Shown piece by piece: positions 6,206 to 26,488 of a stretch of DNA of 64,000 nucleotides (the first letter of the stretch is position 1; the number at the start of each line of letters is the position of its first letter). The stretch spans positions 1 through 64,000 of the forward strand of contig NZ_NITZ01000017.1 in NCBI RefSeq assembly GCF_002632615.1, written 5' to 3'. The position numbers and the translations under genes are program-made. A model generated the notes under the pieces. That model was not told the DNA's origin. It ran no database searches and saw only the letters and a program-made list of their open reading frames with translations. This stretch comes from Xenorhabdus miraniensis (GTDB lineage Bacteria > Pseudomonadota > Gammaproteobacteria > Enterobacterales > Enterobacteriaceae).

Positions 6206-6586
6206 ATGATCAAGCCATTATTATTAGATAAAGCCCTTCCTGAATTAATGCCCATTGGCAGTGTCACTAATCTTGGTTCTGTTGTGGTAGAGGGAGATCC
6301 GCAGGCGAGTGCAGCCATGATCCACGGAGCACCATCGGATAATCTGACTTGCGGTATTTTTGCCTGTACCAAGGGCAAATTTAAAATGGTCTACCCCTTT
6401 GATGAGATGGCAACAGTGCATGAAGGCTCAATAAAACTGACGGATGTCAAAACTGGGGTTACGGTTGAATATCATGAAGGTGACTCGTGGTTTGCGGCAA
6501 AAGGGACTGAAGTATTGTGGGAAATCACCAGCGAACGTTTCGTTAAACATTACATGGCTTGCATAAACGGACAAGTGTCTGGCTAG
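6206..6586 (+). CDS. Small cupin-domain protein
   Basis: A 126-residue single-domain protein. Its beta-rich segment FKMVYPFDEMATVHEGSIKL followed by VEYHEGDSWFAAKGTEVLWEI fits the Cupin_3 (DUF861) type found beside PuuB-like oxidases and aldehyde dehydrogenases. It starts 64 bases after the oxidase gene and ends 12 bases before the dehydrogenase, so all three form one transcription unit. The chemical role is unclear: it may bind a metal and assist amine or aldehyde turnover, or be a sensor. The usual cupin histidines are only partly visible. Confidence 0.75.
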   Translation: MIKPLLLDKALPELMPIGSVTNLGSVVVEGDPQASAAMIHGAPSDNLTCGIFACTKGKFKMVYPFDEMATVHEGSIKLTDVKTGVTVEYHEGDSWFAAKGTEVLWEITSERFVKHYMACINGQVSG

Positions 6587-6598
6587 ACTGAGGAAGAG

Positions 6599-8095
6599 AT
6601 GATGAGTGAAATTAATTTGCTGGAGTCTGTTACCGCTTTTCTGCGACGTTCTCACGGCCATTATATTAATGGAGTCTCTATTCTTGGTCAGGAAAATGAA
6701 ACTTTCTCTGTCGTTAACCCAGCGACGGGTGAAACGATAGCTATGGTCAATCAAGGAGGAGAAAACGAAGTTAATCAGGCAATGCAGGCGGCATCAACCG
6801 CCTTTCATGGTGTATGGGCAGAAACTTCACCCATGGAACGGGGGAATTGCCTGAATCGGCTGGCTGATTTATTGCTGAAAAATAGTGAACAACTGGCACA
6901 ATTGGAAAGCTTATGTTCAGGCAAACCCATCCAGTTATCCCGCATGCTGGATGTGGGGGCATCTGCCGATTATTTGCGCTATTTTGCCGGATGGTCAAGC
7001 AAAATCAGCGGAGAAACACTGGATGTTTCATTGCCCTCATTTAAAGGAGAGAAATATACCGCGTTTACCCGCCGTGAACCGATAGGCGTAGTGGTTGGTA
7101 TTATTCCGTGGAATTTCTCCATCATGATTGCTATCTGGAAATTAGGGGCAGCGTTGACCAGTGGTTGTACTGTGGTGCTGAAACCCAGTGAATATACCCC
7201 CTTGACCATGCTGCGTGTCGCTGAGCTGGCGAAAGAAGCCGGAATCCCTGATGGTGTGATTAACATCGTCAATGGGTCTGGTGCGGGTGTTGGGACGCAC
7301 CTGCTAACTCATCCTCTGTGTGCCAAGGTCACTTTTACAGGTTCAGTGCCTACAGGAAAGCTCATTGGCAAATCTGTCATGGAACATGGGCTGTTCCGTG
7401 CAACGCTGGAGTTAGGCGGTAAAAATGCTGCTGCTTTCCTGTCGGATATGCCTGTTGAGAAGATTGTTGACGGGGTATTGGAAGCGGGTTATATGAATCA
7501 GGGGCAAATCTGTGCGGCGGCGGAACGTTTCTATATTCCTTCTGTTCATATGGATGCGGTTTTGAAATTACTTTCTGAGCGCTTGTCTGCGATGAAAATT
7601 GGCTCTCCCCTTGATGAAACGACGGAAATGGGACCTTTGGCAAATAAAGAGCATTATGAAAAAATTCTGTCTTTGTTTGAGAAAGCGCGTCAGGAGGGGA
7701 GTGAAATCGTATATGGCGGCCATGCTCTGGAAAGGAAGGGTTTCTTTGTCATGCCAACCGTGATTCGTGCCAAAAGTGCTGACGATACATTGATGAAAGA
7801 AGAAACATTCGGGCCAATTGGTACTTTCCTCAGTTATGACGATGAGGAAGAGCTGATTGCCATGATGAATGCAACGCCATTCGGTTTATCCGCCAGTTTA
7901 TGGACTAACGATTTGGGCAAAGCGATGCGTATGACATCTCGCATTGAAGCGGGAATACTATGGATCAACATGCATACGTTCCTCGATCCTGCTGTTCCAT
8001 TTGGTGGCGTGAAATCCTCTGGGATGGGGCGTGAATTTGGCAGTGCATTCATTGAACATTATACGGAATTGAAGTCGGTCATCATGCGCTATTAA
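6599..8095 (+). CDS. NAD(P)-dependent aldehyde dehydrogenase (PuuC/GabD-like)
   Basis: A 498-residue cytosolic enzyme that oxidises an aldehyde to the acid. Landmarks: GIIPWNFSIMIAIWKLG (about 165-181), KPSEYTP, the dinucleotide-site FTGSVPTGKLIG near 246, the general-base Glu in TLELGGKN (about E271) and the nucleophile in MNQGQICAAAERF (about C305). It completes the oxidase-cupin-dehydrogenase unit and would convert the aldehyde made by the PuuB-like enzyme, for example to a gamma-amino acid. A tandem ATG ATG start follows GAGGAAGAG; the second Met (6602) is equally plausible. A hairpin terminator follows. Confidence 0.9.
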   Translation: MMSEINLLESVTAFLRRSHGHYINGVSILGQENETFSVVNPATGETIAMVNQGGENEVNQAMQAASTAFHGVWAETSPMERGNCLNRLADLLLKNSEQLAQLESLCSGKPIQLSRMLDVGASADYLRYFAGWSSKISGETLDVSLPSFKGEKYTAFTRREPIGVVVGIIPWNFSIMIAIWKLGAALTSGCTVVLKPSEYTPLTMLRVAELAKEAGIPDGVINIVNGSGAGVGTHLLTHPLCAKVTFTGSVPTGKLIGKSVMEHGLFRATLELGGKNAAAFLSDMPVEKIVDGVLEAGYMNQGQICAAAERFYIPSVHMDAVLKLLSERLSAMKIGSPLDETTEMGPLANKEHYEKILSLFEKARQEGSEIVYGGHALERKGFFVMPTVIRAKSADDTLMKEETFGPIGTFLSYDDEEELIAMMNATPFGLSASLWTNDLGKAMRMTSRIEAGILWINMHTFLDPAVPFGGVKSSGMGREFGSAFIEHYTELKSVIMRY

Positions 8096-21437: not shown

Positions 21438-22016
21438 ATGGGTGTATCTCTTTCTAAAGGCGGTAACGTTTCTCTGAGCAAAGAAGCGCCAAGCATGAAA
21501 AACGTTCTGATCGGTCTCGGTTGGGATGCTCGCGCAACTGACGGACAAGACTTTGACCTTGACGCATCAGCTTTCCTGCTGACAGCAAACGGTAAAGTAC
21601 GCGGTGATGCAGATTTCATTTTCTACAACAACCTGAAATCGGCTGACGGCTCCATTATGCACACTGGCGACAACCGTACCGGTGAAGGGGATGGCGATGA
21701 CGAATCACTGAAAATCAAACTGGATCAAATTCCTGCTGACGTAGATAAAGTTGTATTTGTGGTAACTATCCACGATGCACAAACCCGTCGCCAGAGCTTT
21801 GGTCAGGTTTCCGGTGCATTCATCCGTCTGGTTAACGATGACACTCAAGTTGAAGTAGCTCGTTATGATCTGACTGAAGATGCTTCTACTGAAACTGCAA
21901 TGCTGTTCGGTGAACTGTATCGTCACAATGCAGAATGGAAGTTCCGCGCAGTAGGTCAGGGTTACGCTGGTGGTCTGGCTTCTGTTTGTGCTCAGTACGG
22001 CATTAACGCTGCCTAA
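21438..22016 (+). CDS. terD: TerD, tellurite/stress resistance protein
   Basis: A 192-residue TerD-domain protein, nearly identical to enterobacterial TerD (start [20 protein letters not shown]). Calcium-binding blocks: [12 protein letters not shown] and [17 protein letters not shown]. TerE is excluded by the [19 protein letters not shown] block. It is the last gene of the operon: terE and terF are missing, and a strong terminator follows. The spacing to terC is 74 bp. Confidence 0.96.
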
Positions 22017-22166: not shown

Positions 22167-22189
22167 GAATAGAATTCATAGGTTAACAT

Positions 22190-22209
22190 TTAGTACCAAA
22201 CTGTTAACC
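22190..22209 (+). repeat. Left inverted repeat of the predicted phase switch
   Basis: TTAGTACCAAACTGTTAACC is the exact reverse complement of 22471-22490. Together with the outer bases it forms GGTTAACA (22181-22188) and TGTTAACC (22202-22209), 13 bp apart, which looks like a pair of recombinase-binding arms around a crossover core. Confidence 0.9.
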
Positions 22210-22470
22210 CAGGATGATTAAACTTAGTTTGAATATTATTTTGGTTTATTACTCCAACATCAATGGAGGTTTTAATTTATATAGCTTTCGATGTCGAGCA
22301 ATTTAAACTTTTGTTCAATGTGATAGCAAAAAAGGAATATTTTGATAAGGGAAAAACAAAGTGTGGGGTTAGGATAGGAGGGAAATTTTTTAAGCTTGAA
22401 TCAAAGAGTTATTTTGATTCTTGCGAAAGACGTGAAGATAAATGGTGTTGAAAAAGTGGGAAAATTTATT
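22210..22470. mobile_element. Predicted 261-bp invertible DNA segment
   Basis: The segment is bounded by perfect 20-bp inverted repeats and adjoins a FimB/MrpI-type recombinase, the arrangement of fimbrial phase switches. In the orientation shown it supplies the last 26 codons and stop (22390) of the recombinase gene on the minus strand. Inverted, it would give the codons Gln-Asp-Asp-stop after the repeat. It also holds a perfect IHF consensus and a weak plus-strand frame of 62 codons (22263-22451) that starts inside GGAGG context without a clear ribosome binding site; that frame is not called as a gene. The minus strand carries TATATAA near 22276-22282 as a possible promoter part. Confidence 0.75.
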
Positions 22471-23082
22471 GGTTAACAGTTTGGTACTAATTGTCGACAA
22501 TTTTCGTTTCCCTCTTTCTTGCCATATCGTCTCGAAGCGGCCTGCATTACTCGCGGTGTAGCGGACCGTATGGCGAATGTTTCGATGGCCTAAATAGTCC
22601 TGAATCAAGCGGGTATCCACACCATTGTCCGCCAGCGCATAGCCGCAAGAATGTCGTAACATGTGCGGATTCGCGCAAACCGCTAAATTAGCCTTTAAAC
22701 TGGTTTGCCGGATGATCTTATAAAACTGTTGGCGTGACATGCGCGCCCCGGTTCGTGACAAGAATAACCAATCACTTTGATCACTGTTTTTATAGCGCTG
22801 ACGCAGTGAAAGCCATTTCCGTATTAATTGAATTTCCCGCGCTACCATTGGATGGATCGTGGAAAAACCATTCTTCAATCGTTGTACCCGTAGTTTTTTG
22901 CCCTCCAAATCGATATCAGACAGTTTCAAACCCAGCAATTCAGACACCCGGAAACCGTGGATAAAACCCATAAATATCATGCAGATGTTGCGATCTGCAT
23001 GAGGGTGTTTTTCCAATTCCTTGAGCAATACTTCAATTTCCGAGTGGGTTAAATATTTACGCTTTAACATGATGTTTGACAC
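22390..23082 (-). CDS. FimB/MrpI-type tyrosine recombinase with switchable C-terminus
   Basis: A 230-residue site-specific recombinase. The catalytic set is visible: Arg in FIHGFRVSELLGL (about R49), Lys in VQRLKNGFS (about K72), HMLRHSCGYAL (about 144-154), GHRNIRHTVRYTASNAGRF with the second His-x-x-H and the nucleophile Tyr (about Y180). It aligns with FimB up to about residue 197; FimB ends at about 200, and this protein carries a further tail of about 30 residues encoded by the right repeat and the adjacent segment. Inversion would shorten it to 207 residues. The GTG at 23082 has AGGGAG nine bases upstream; an ATG at 23070 is the alternative. No fimbrial genes are adjacent, unlike fimBE or mrpI. 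Confidence 0.9.
   Translation of the reverse strand: MSNIMLKRKYLTHSEIEVLLKELEKHPHADRNICMIFMGFIHGFRVSELLGLKLSDIDLEGKKLRVQRLKNGFSTIHPMVAREIQLIRKWLSLRQRYKNSDQSDWLFLSRTGARMSRQQFYKIIRQTSLKANLAVCANPHMLRHSCGYALADNGVDTRLIQDYLGHRNIRHTVRYTASNAGRFETIWQERGKRKLSTISTKLLTNKFSHFFNTIYLHVFRKNQNNSLIQA
22399..22411 (+). promoter_or_regulatory. IHF-binding consensus inside the invertible segment
   Basis: AATCAAAGAGTTA matches the IHF consensus WATCAANNNNTTR at every position. IHF bends DNA within the fim and mrp switches and is needed for inversion there, so its presence 60 bp from the right repeat supports the switch model. Confidence 0.7.
22471..22490 (-). repeat. Right inverted repeat, inside the recombinase gene
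   Basis: GGTTAACAGTTTGGTACTAA, the exact complement of the left repeat. On the minus strand it encodes Ile-Ser-Thr-Lys-Leu-Leu-Thr of the recombinase, so recombination here keeps the protein in frame up to the repeat and changes what follows. Confidence 0.9.
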
Positions 23083-23263: not shown

Positions 23264-26200
23264 TTATTTGACAATCTTTGCGTGCATTTCTTGTACAGAA
23301 ATAACTTGTTCAGTAGGATCTGCGCTGAGTGCCATGGTGGTTGCAAAGCCACCATTCAGGGTTGTGTCATAGTGCACTTTATATTGCAGTGCGCTACGAC
23401 GCAGCAGTTTTGAATCTTCAATTGCCTGACGGCCTGCGGTGGTATTGACGATATAGTCATATTCACCGTTTTTGATTCTGTCCTGAATATGTGGGCGTCC
23501 TTCGTGGACTTTATTGACTAAACGTGGGTTGATCCCTGCTTCACCTAAGACGACTGCCGTACCGTGAGTCGCATCCAGTTCAAAGCCATGTTTAAGCAAC
23601 TTAGCCGCCAAATCGACCACACGCTCTTTATCACCTTCACGTACTGACAACAATGCACGGCCTTTTTTGCGCATGGTGGAGTTACTGCCCAACATAGCTT
23701 TTGAGAAGGCTTCCGCAAAGGTACGGCCAACGCCCATGACTTCACCCGTAGAACGCATTTCTGGCCCCAGAATTGGGTCAACGCCCGGGAATTTATTGAA
23801 TGGCAGAACCACTTCTTTTACGGAGTAGTAAGGTGGAATGATTTCTTCAATTGCACCTTGCTCAAGCAGGGATTGACCCGCCATGACGCGTGCCGCGACT
23901 TTTGCCAGCGGCAAACTGGTCGCTTTGGAAACGAATGGCACGGTACGCGCTGCCCGTGGGTTGACTTCAATCAGGTAAACTTCGTTATTTTTCACCGCAA
24001 ACTGAACATTCATCAGGCCACGGACACGCAGTTCAAAGGCCAGTTTTTCAACTTGCTGGCGCATAACATCCTGAATTTCTTTACTTAAAGTATAAGCCGG
24101 TAAAGAACACGCAGAATCACCAGAGTGAACACCCGCTTGTTCGATGTGTTCCATGATACCGCCGATCAAAACGCGCTCACCATCACAGATGGCATCTACG
24201 TCTACTTCAACTGCATCATCCAGAAAGCGATCCAGCAGGACGGGGGCATCGTTGGATACGCTAGCCGCAGTCTGGAAGTAACGGCGCAGGTCAGATTCGT
24301 CATACACGATTTCCATTGCGCGTCCGCCCAATACATAAGATGGGCGAACAACCAGTGGATAACCCAGTGCATTACCTTTCTCAACCGCTTGTTCGATAGT
24401 TGTAACCGTGGCGTTCGCAGGTTGTTTCAGGCCAAGGCGATTAACGGCCTGCTGGAAACGCTCACGATCTTCTGCGCGGTCAATGGCATCAGGGCTGGTG
24501 CCGATAATAGGTACACCCGCGGCTTCCAGCTCACGTGCCAGTTTCAGTGGAGTCTGGCCGCCATACTGAACGATCACTCCTTTTGGCTGTTCAACACGTA
24601 CAATTTCCAGTACGTCTTCCAGTGTCACCGGTTCAAAATAGAGACGATCTGACGTATCGTAATCAGTGGAAACCGTTTCAGGGTTACAGTTCACCATGAT
24701 AGTTTCATAACCGTCTTCACGCAGGGCCAGTGAAGCGTGGACACAGCAGTAATCGAATTCAATGCCTTGCCCGATACGGTTCGGGCCACCACCCAATACG
24801 ATGATTTTTGGCTTATCGTTGTTCGGATTCGCTTCACATTCGTCTTCGTATGTGGAGTACATGTAAGCGGTATCGGTGGCGAATTCTGCCGCACAAGTAT
24901 CAACACGCTTGTACACGGGATACAGGTTATAGTCATGACGCAATTTGCGGATCTCTTTATCAGAGATGCCTACCAGTTTCGCCAAATGTGCATCGGCAAA
25001 ACCTTTGCGCTTGAGCTGACGCAGGAAATCAACAGTCAGGCTGTTAACGCCTTGTTCTGCAACTTGTTCTTCCAGACGGATCAATTCTTCAATCTGAACC
25101 AGGAACCAGCGATCGATATTGGTCAGGTTGAAGATACCATCAACTGACATGCCCGCGCGGAATGCGTCTGCGACATACCAGATACGCTCAGCGCCTGCAT
25201 TTTTCAGCTCGCTGCGAATTTTGGTCAGGGATTGTGGATCATCCAGATTGACTTTAGGATCGAATCCGGTCGCACCGACTTCCAGACCGCGCAGGGCTTT
25301 CTGCAAAGACTCCTGGAATGTACGACCAATCGCCATCACTTCACCAACAGATTTCATCTGAGTAGTCAGACGATCATTGCTGCCAGCAAATTTCTCGAAG
25401 TTGAAGCGAGGAATTTTCGTCACAACATAGTCAATCGAAGGTTCGAAAGACGCTGGGGTACGTCCGCCCGTGATGTCATTCATCAGCTCATCAAGGGTAT
25501 AGCCTACCGCCAGTTTTGCTGCGATTTTCGCAATTGGGAAGCCTGTTGCCTTGGAGGCCAGCGCCGAAGAACGGGATACGCGGGGGTTCATTTCAATGAC
25601 GATCAAACGACCATTTTTCGGATTCACCGCAAATTGTACGTTTGAACCCCCGGTTTCTACACCGATTTCACGTAAGACCGCCATCGATGCGTTACGCATG
25701 ATTTGGTATTCTTTGTCGGTCAGTGTTTGTGCAGGTGCAACGGTGATGGAGTCACCGGTATGGATGCCCATTGGGTCGAAGTTTTCAATGGAGCAGACGA
25801 TGATGCAGTTATCGTTTTTATCACGCACCACCTCCATTTCATACTCTTTCCAGCCAATCAGGGATTCATCGATCAGCAGTTCATTGGTTGGAGAGAGGTC
25901 TAAACCACGTTCACAAATTTCTTCAAATTCTTCGCGGTTGTAGGCAATACCGCCGCCAGTTCCGCCCATGGTGAAAGAAGGGCGGATAATACAAGGGAAG
26001 CCAACCTCTTCAGCTACCGCCAACGCTTCTTCCATGGTGTGGGCAATACCCGAACGTGCTGTGTCCAAGCCGATTTTTTTCATCGCCTTGTCAAAACGCT
26101 GGCGATCTTCGGCCTTATCAATTGCATCAGCAGTTGCACCAATCATGGTGACGCCGAATTCGTTCAGAACTCCCTGACGCTCCAGTTCCAATGCGCAGTT

Positions 26201-26488
26201 CAGGGCAGTTTGTCCACCCATCGTTGGCAAAATTGCATCCGGGCGCTCTTTTTCAATGATTTTGCGTACAACTTCCCAGTGAATTGGCTCGATGTAAGTT
26301 GCATCCGCCATTTCCGGGTCGGTCATAATGGTTGCAGGGTTAGAGTTCACCAGAATGACGCGATAGCCTTCTTCCCTTAGCGCCTTACACGCCTGCGCCC
26401 CGGAGTAGTCAAACTCACAAGCCTGACCGATAACAATCGGGCCAGCACCTAAAATCAGAATACTTTTAATATCAGTACGTTTTGCCAT
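23264..26488 (-). CDS. carB: Carbamoyl-phosphate synthase large subunit
   Basis: A 1074-residue enzyme making carbamoyl phosphate from bicarbonate, ammonia (from CarA) and two ATP, for pyrimidine and arginine synthesis. Two homologous ATP-grasp halves are clear: first half [26 protein letters not shown] (residues 12-37) and [13 protein letters not shown]; second half [22 protein letters not shown] (near 560) and [15 protein letters not shown]. The C-terminal allosteric MGS-like domain starts near residue 935. Length matches E. coli CarB (1073). It lies 18 bp after carA. Confidence 0.98.

Follow-up and report, generated by a model that had tools for sequence, protein, structure and literature searches.

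An invertible element in Xenorhabdus with its proximal recombination site inside a FimB/FimE-type recombinase gene, where inversion would exchange the C-terminus of the enzyme

The recombinase gene and its invertible element

The window analysed here, a stretch of 64,000 nucleotides from Xenorhabdus miraniensis (contig NZ_NITZ01000017.1), carries a FimB/FimE-type recombinase gene between terD, which has TerB and TerC upstream of it, and carB (Table 1). The recombinase scored 268 bits against the NF007370 profile (tyrosine-type DNA invertase; curated cut-off 221) and 229 bits against NF007371 (cut-off 222). In its present form the protein has 230 amino acids when counted from a GTG start and 226 when counted from the next ATG. 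Residues R45, H140, R143, and Y175 were invariant in an alignment of 46 sequences, and we take them to be the catalytic RHRY residues.

Two inverted-repeat arms of 24 nt (22186-22209 and 22471-22494), 96% complementary and 261 nt apart, share a perfect 20-nt core, TTAGTACCAAACTGTTAACC, at 22190-22209 and 22471-22490, which frames an AT-rich segment of approximately 260 bp. When up to three mismatches were allowed, this core was found twice in the whole window, at the two arms, while 0.01 matches were expected in shuffled sequences. The arms of 31 loci yielded a consensus with half-sites of the form GTTRACA and TGTYAAC and an asymmetric core between them. Each arm reads like a complete tyrosine-recombinase site, in which we infer the half-sites listed in Table 1, and the recombinase-proximal site lies wholly within the recombinase reading frame. 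A putative IHF-like site, AATCAAAGAGTTA, fits what we take to be the IHF consensus, WATCARNNNNTTR; its TTGAT columns were invariant in the alignment of the window's orthologues (class A, see below) and read (T/C)TGAT in class C. A TCGAAAG box elsewhere in the element reads CGAAAG in the class C alignment. A 62-aa open reading frame within the element matched no Pfam or NCBIfam family.

The proximal (right) arm is read in frame by the recombinase gene and encodes Ile-Ser-Thr-Lys-Leu-Leu-Thr (ISTKLLT), as the first-pass annotation had stated and as the coordinates of the reading frame and the repeat confirm. The present protein ends in ...STKLLT-NKFSHFFNTIYLHVFRKNQNNSLIQA-stop, 26 residues past the repeat. 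Inversion of the element in silico changed this end to ...STKLLT-QDD-stop and gave a protein of 207 amino acids from the GTG, 23 residues shorter than the present form. The sizes given at first pass thus hold, both for the present form (230 amino acids, 26 residues past the repeat, stop at 22390) and for the inverted one (207 amino acids ending in Gln-Asp-Asp), which the in silico inversion reproduced. The proposal that inversion would edit the recombinase's own C-terminus is supported at sequence level in the window and in its relatives. A sequencing error at the repeat is an unlikely source of the arrangement, since locus L031/L085 of X. khoisanae MCB, which was sequenced independently, shares this frame and both tails. 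In the predicted structure, residues 191-230 at the tail end had pLDDT values of about 41-46.

Table 1. Coordinates of the recombinase gene, its recombination sites, and neighbouring features in the window.
Feature	Position	Strand	Basis
terD, last of the ter genes; points towards the switch, on its distal flank	21438..22016	+	PF02342, E=4.9e-87
Distal site, 27 nt: half-sites GTTAACA / TGTTAAC around TTTAGTACCAAAC	22182..22208	+	Opposite in orientation to the proximal site
Invertible segment of 301 bp, both core repeats included	22190..22490	.	Repeats; orthologues in both orientations
Short-form tail, CAG GAT GAT TAA (Gln-Asp-Asp-stop once inverted)	22210..22221	+	In silico inversion
TCGAAAG box	22285..22291	-	Invariant in class A orthologue alignment
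FimB/FimE-type tyrosine recombinase (DNA invertase), long form, 230 aa	22390..23082	-	PF00589, E=2.3e-47
Long-form tail, 26 codons after the repeat (stop 22390-22392)	22393..22470	-	Open in 12/12 class A sequences
IHF-like site (putative), AATCAAAGAGTTA, overlapping terminal codons of the long tail	22399..22411	+	Read from sequence
Recombinase-proximal site, 27 nt: half-sites GTCGACA / TGTTAAC, asymmetric core ATTAGTACCAAAC	22472..22498	-	Sequence; 31-arm consensus
carB, upstream neighbour of the recombinase	23264..26488	-	Identified by sequence

Recurrence, orientation, and exchange among relatives

The nearest named relative of the window is X. khoisanae MCB. Close paralogues of the recombinase (about 74% identity or more) were present in 13 of 30 same-genus genomes, and the window's orthologue, class A, in 11 of the 30. 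carB was found upstream of class A in 9 of these 11 genomes and not in the two X. bovienii-like ones. Class B adjoins ter genes, a fimbrial operon (L075, L056), or neither (L069). Of the 11 class C loci with distal flank sequence, 9 have a gene of about 1680-1890 codons past the element, the exceptions being L067 and L046. A family scan, made for L063 alone, identified this gene as an inverse autotransporter with invasin domains; the other class C downstream genes are likened to that of L063 by their start and size. The module of recombinase, element, and ∼1680-1890-codon gene was seen in L063, L064, L074, L039, L079, L081, L041, L083, and L089, and some Xenorhabdus genomes hold more than one copy.

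Among relatives, 33 loci had a complete repeat pair (12 of class A, 7 of class B, and 14 of class C), and in every one of them the proximal arm began before the recombinase stop codon. This count skips hits of fewer than 100 aligned residues (L061 among them) and leaves out L047 and L062, which run off their contigs, the duplicates L040, L071, and L082, and the partial loci L083, L084, and L089; it includes two assembled copies each of A and B from X. hominickii. The class A and class B regions of that species (L035/L036 and L058/L077) occur twice in the assembly, on two contigs. No complete repeat pair was found in 4 of the 11 class B loci examined, all of them beside ter (L065, L072, L080, and L045), nor in the class C-like locus L046. 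The first-pass annotation had named a repeat outside the recombinase gene in relatives as grounds for refutation; none of these 33 Xenorhabdus loci has its repeat there, but L048 does, in G031, a more distant genome of the same family. There, two FimB/FimE-like genes lie in tandem (6300-8093, gene strand) with a fim-like element outside the genes, and its repeat, AGTCAATTGGGGCCA, starts 41 bp past the stop codon of one of them.

The window and its relatives have inverted repeats ∼250-320 bp apart beside a recombinase gene. A scan with the site pattern matched 15 of 19 genomes (18 same-genus genomes and G031), and all exact matches but one (in G008) face a partner 280-285 bp away, one partner having a single mismatch. 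In a survey of the same order, a relative at E<=1e-58 was present in 5 of 197 genomes, including two from Xenorhabdus (G001 and G006). A different recombinase of about 194 amino acids, ∼53% identical, was present in all 30 same-genus genomes (e.g. L053, L054, and L059); three copies were examined, and the sequence near their 3' ends yielded no inverted repeat. At the level of sequence, the arrangement is not due to chance and is recurrent in this group.

Compared with the window, class A interiors are inverted in X. mauleonii (L037), X. szentirmaii (L038), X. bovienii T228 (L044), in which the recombinase gene is broken, and genome G029 (L010/L052), which is probably X. bovienii. Inverted in silico, these interiors gave a 26-residue tail, the length found in the other species. 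The 207-aa protein of G029 (L052) became 230 amino acids long after inversion in silico and matched the database protein P0003 at 224 of 230 positions, and at 25 of 26 in the tail. Both protein forms thus exist in nature, within or very near what is probably one species, X. bovienii. In this comparison between genomes, orthologues occur in both orientations.

The window was colinear with locus A of X. khoisanae MCB through position 22181 (96.8% identity over 3321 bp, no gaps). From 22208 leftwards it matched a different MCB contig, with a B-type interior beside ter, at 95.7%. The two matches overlap in the 27-nt left site plus one base, and it is here that the car side and the ter side switch. 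On the simplest reading of these alignments, the distal sites of elements A and B have been exchanged. The window probably has the derived arrangement, because most other class A loci have a fimbrial operon on the distal side. The one base adjoining the left site follows MCB locus A, so the crossover could sit at the outer edge of that site; homologous exchange through the short repeat could be an alternative cause. Two further loci, L066 and L068, have class B recombinases, 95-96% identical in DNA to that of L069 (which has a B-type interior), together with A-type interiors and tails of 26 and 24 residues. Their interiors were 89% identical to the A interior of L034 and 55-56% identical to the interior of L069. 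The presence of A-type interiors beside class B recombinases shows that interiors, together with their tails, have moved between paralogues.

In X. japonica, the class A locus (L033, near 6983) and the class B locus (L069, near 2737) lose synteny past their distal arms. Arm-mediated exchange was rejected as the cause of these rearrangements because the breaks lie ∼90 bp beyond the arms.

In the window, the recombinase and terD both converge on the element, and neither neighbour is placed for outward transcription. In other class A loci with a fimbrial operon, the 3' end of this MR/P-like operon faces the element, again converging (X. japonica differs); the operon of L085 comprises, by family scan, a regulator, an MrpH-like adhesin, a chaperone, an usher, and a pilin. 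When the pilin end of this operon was searched for another element in class A, just a degenerate single arm-like sequence turned up, in two loci. Gene order permits an element-driven neighbour in class C and in the class B loci L075 and L056, but not in the window. With its two neighbours running towards the switch, the window has no visible output other than the end of the recombinase itself. A consensus promoter scan of the region gave 4 matches with 3.5 expected, which is chance level, and a hexamer scan based on alignments revealed no clear promoter either. In class A, the best candidate signals were on the recombinase-sense strand in the long state. Given these scans, we assign no ON/OFF direction.

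The two tails, the long frame, and the transcript end

Tails were compared in 30 loci, leaving out the duplicates L036, L058, L040, and L082, the N-masked L039 and L071, and L044. Both reading frames past the repeat were found to be kept in relatives. The short tails of the 11 class A loci were QDD, EDD, or QED, with EDDKT in X. mauleonii, and all 11 short forms contain two or three acidic residues. In class C, D or E occurs within the first three residues of the short form in 9 of 13 sequences, and in four loci with B-type interiors the final residue is D or E. The short forms of L067 and L070 add zero residues past the repeat. Four class B loci with B-type interiors toggle between just 8 and 3 residues, so that, in general, the module does not require a 26-residue tail. 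Hydrophobic content was 0.45 in the long tail and 0.47 in control frames of the same DNA.

Conservation of the class A long tail was assessed in 12 sequences, the window included; L036 was omitted since its element and tails are identical to those of L035, and L044 was kept despite its broken recombinase body. The 26-codon frame was open in all 12 sequences and ended at one shared stop, with gaps in 0 of 78 columns; the rest of the class A interior beyond the tail had gaps in 4 of 182. Neutral evolution was simulated on the tree of the element's remaining interior, under a model without rate variation or DNA-level constraint. At a mean divergence of 0.340 (0.329 was observed in the tail), all 12 frames stayed open in 5 of 1500 runs and shared the same stop in none of the 1500. 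The corresponding numbers were 12 and 0 of 1500 at a divergence of 0.283, and 37 and 4 of 1500 at 0.213. The pN/pS ratio of the 26 codons was 0.57, against a mean of 0.81 for shuffled columns (7 of 300 as low), and other frames of the tail ranged from 0.63 to 1.02; one reverse frame was also low (0.63 vs. 0.55). For the first 17 codons, which exclude the IHF-like end, the signal was weaker (40 of 500 shuffles as low), and some of the tail conservation may belong to the IHF-like DNA site. In class C the 16-codon frame was open in 13 of 13 sequences, its codon constraint was not significant (102 of 500 shuffles as low), and a one-base shift leads to an earlier end (20 codons) in 6 of the 13. We conclude from these alignments that the class A frame is kept open, with its exact residues only weakly constrained.

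Composition and folding were analysed in the 30 loci of the tail comparison plus L044, 31 in all; for the skew, classes A and C were turned to the long state by homology and class B was taken as found. On the strand of the recombinase mRNA, C was richer than G in 31 of 31 elements, with a mean (C-G)/(C+G) of 0.37. In 1747 overlapping AT-rich background windows the mean absolute skew was 0.14, and 3.5% of them reached 0.37. The skew was small, 0.07-0.18, in four B-type interiors. RNA that is rich in C, poor in G, and weakly folded is the kind used by Rho. In all 12 class A sequences the 80 nt past the long stop were predicted to fold more weakly (0.0 to -4.9 kcal/mol) than those past the short stop (-6.7 to -14.8 kcal/mol). 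Compared to shuffles of the same composition, neither state was consistently unusual (z from -3.9 to 1.3 for the long state and from -1.6 to 0.7 for the short). A terminator hairpin past the short stop was rejected, as the folds were not stronger than shuffles in most of the 12 sequences. The contrast between acidic and non-acidic tails is not independent evidence, because the same skew takes Asp and Glu codons from the long tail and gives them to the short one.

Interpretation and comparison with known systems

The reading towards which we lean is that of a fimS/ipuS-type switch with its proximal site in its own recombinase gene, in which orientation sets recombinase output via the tail, the mRNA 3' end, or both. 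Flipping in the window would then act locally above all on the recombinase itself. In the long state, the recombinase mRNA would run through a C-rich, G-poor, weakly folded stretch of the Rho type and the enzyme would carry the long tail; the short state would have neither. Orientation might in this way determine how much enzyme is present or how active it is, giving a state-dependent flipping rate rather than a strict direction, and the product could also act on sister switches with the same site. In support of this self-directed switch are the 33 of 33 in-gene arms, the occurrence of both orientations, the open frame, the C>G skew, the distal-site exchange, and the ipuS and fimS precedents. 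It is weakened by the activity of both forms of the E. coli recombinase IpuA, the weak codon constraint, the class C frameshifts, the short class B tails, a tail hydrophobicity like that of control frames, the small B-type skew, chance-level promoters, and the low confidence of the predicted tail. The first-pass annotation had gone further and suggested that the change of tail could alter directionality or activity and create memory; an effect on direction or memory is not favoured by the published IpuA test (below). A stricter version would make the window switch purely self-referential: its sole output would be its own tail and mRNA end, orientation would store and set the enzyme rate, and the paralogues that share the site would form a linked self-editing network. 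We consider this version decidedly unlikely; if true, site-specific exchange would also shuffle tails and flanking operons between paralogues.

The same layout could arise in a compact but otherwise ordinary promoter switch, whose site overlaps the gene end through tight packing; the two tails would be equivalent by-products, with selection acting on the promoter, IHF, and recombination sites. The activity of both IpuA forms (PMC6083910, cited here, like the other PMC articles, from excerpts), the short class B tails, the match in hydrophobicity between long tail and control frames, and the weak class C codon constraint all fit such a switch, as does the long L063-like gene past the element in 9 of 11 class C loci, which a promoter switch should have. 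Twelve open frames out of 12 with a shared stop and no indels were, however, rare under the neutral simulation, and the window and the other class A loci with a fimbrial operon have no gene placed for outward driving; we regard this explanation as possible but rather doubtful. Control of the mRNA 3' end as in E. coli fimE, where orientation would connect or disconnect a Rho-dependent terminator and the change of the protein tail would be incidental, is an alternative of similarly tentative standing. It agrees with the C>G skew that all 31 elements show on the recombinase-sense strand, the weaker fold past the long than past the short stop in each of the 12 class A sequences, and the fimS/fimE precedent (PMC9993118), but less well with the skew of 0.07-0.18 in four B-type interiors and with folds of which neither state is consistently unusual against shuffles.

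Flipping could also set the half-life of the enzyme, the short acidic tail alternating with a long, unstructured, protease-accessible one in a degron toggle like that of mycobacteriophage immunity. Acidic short forms are found in all 11 class A loci, in 9 of the 13 class C sequences, and in the four loci with B-type interiors, the tail is predicted at low confidence, and there is a precedent for degron removal by truncation of 20-35 residues (PMC8092301). The acidic label is, however, assigned by acid content itself, the contrast derives partly from a G-poor strand on which the D and E codons, needing G, are depleted, and the short forms of L067 and L070 add zero residues; this explanation seems to us quite improbable. 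It is unlikely, though less so, that the switch at ter is a non-functional relic, drifting after the loss of its target or after the exchange. In the window the element lies between two converging neighbours, a complete pair is missing from 4 of the 11 class B loci, all four beside ter, and the recombinase gene of X. bovienii T228 is broken. Against decay, the cores in the window are perfect, its reading frame and catalytic residues are intact, and, after the window and MCB strains diverged, the distal site took part in recombination in one lineage or the other.

The arrangement in which an enzyme edits itself, reported at one E. coli locus, is the usual layout in this Xenorhabdus switch family, with an open long frame. 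The family is a good system for asking whether recombinases exploit feedback from their own DNA state and what makes FimB/FimE-type enzymes differ in bias. Through the sites shared between loci, adhesin operons of these nematode symbionts may also become rewired.

In E. coli CFT073, ipuS is a 260-bp element whose distal repeat lies within ipuA, the gene of a FimB-like recombinase. Its inversion removes 11 residues from the C-terminus of IpuA and replaces one more, leaving RHRY untouched, and full-length and truncated IpuA both invert ipuS both ways, in an assay that, according to its authors, is not explicitly quantitative (PMC6083910). In subsequent work IpuA was most efficient in the ON-to-OFF direction, in a passage that gives no tail form (PMC6458436). 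The two systems have in common a repeat within the recombinase gene and an inversion that alters the C-terminus. They differ in the repeats, which are 7 bp in ipuS, where 11 residues are removed, and 23 nt or more in the window, where the change is 23 residues (PMC6083910), and in output, since ipuS drives ipuR-upaE whereas the window is without a drivable neighbour (PMC6083910, PMC6458436). In these excerpts ipuS is described as one locus, whereas Xenorhabdus has several paralogous switches with one common site and exchange between loci.

The E. coli fimS element, acted on by FimB and FimE, resembles the window in recombinase family and in its size of ∼300 bp; fimS is dependent on IHF, and the window has an IHF-like site (PMC9993118). 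fimS holds a Rho-dependent terminator that affects fimE mRNA, an orientation-linked arrangement (PMC9993118) with which the C>G skew of the window is compatible. A fim-like repeat, TTGGGGCCA, is outside the recombinase gene, whereas the window repeat is inside. The mrpI system of Proteus mirabilis is similar in tying a recombinase and an invertible element to MR/P-type fimbriae, and L085 has an MrpH-like adhesin; the mrp element carries the operon promoter (PMC7444556), whereas at class A loci it is the 3' end of the operon that faces the element. In the integration-dependent immunity of mycobacteriophages, recombination strips a C-terminal degradation tag from the repressor by a truncation of 20-35 residues (PMC8092301). 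The likeness is that site-specific recombination within a gene switches a C-terminus between longer and shorter; the phages offer a repressor, integration, and a reported tag, whereas the window offers a recombinase, inversion, and a hypothetical tag (PMC8092301). A mad switch of Photorhabdus is mentioned in PMC5903667. Among the literature matches listed, mostly non-subscription articles represented by excerpts and including PMC3091717 and PMC13280938, none described the repeat-in-recombinase layout in Xenorhabdus. Self-editing as such is already published for ipuS/IpuA; what is new is that it occurs across paralogues, that the long frame is maintained, that loci have undergone exchange with one another, and that the window copy shows no other output.
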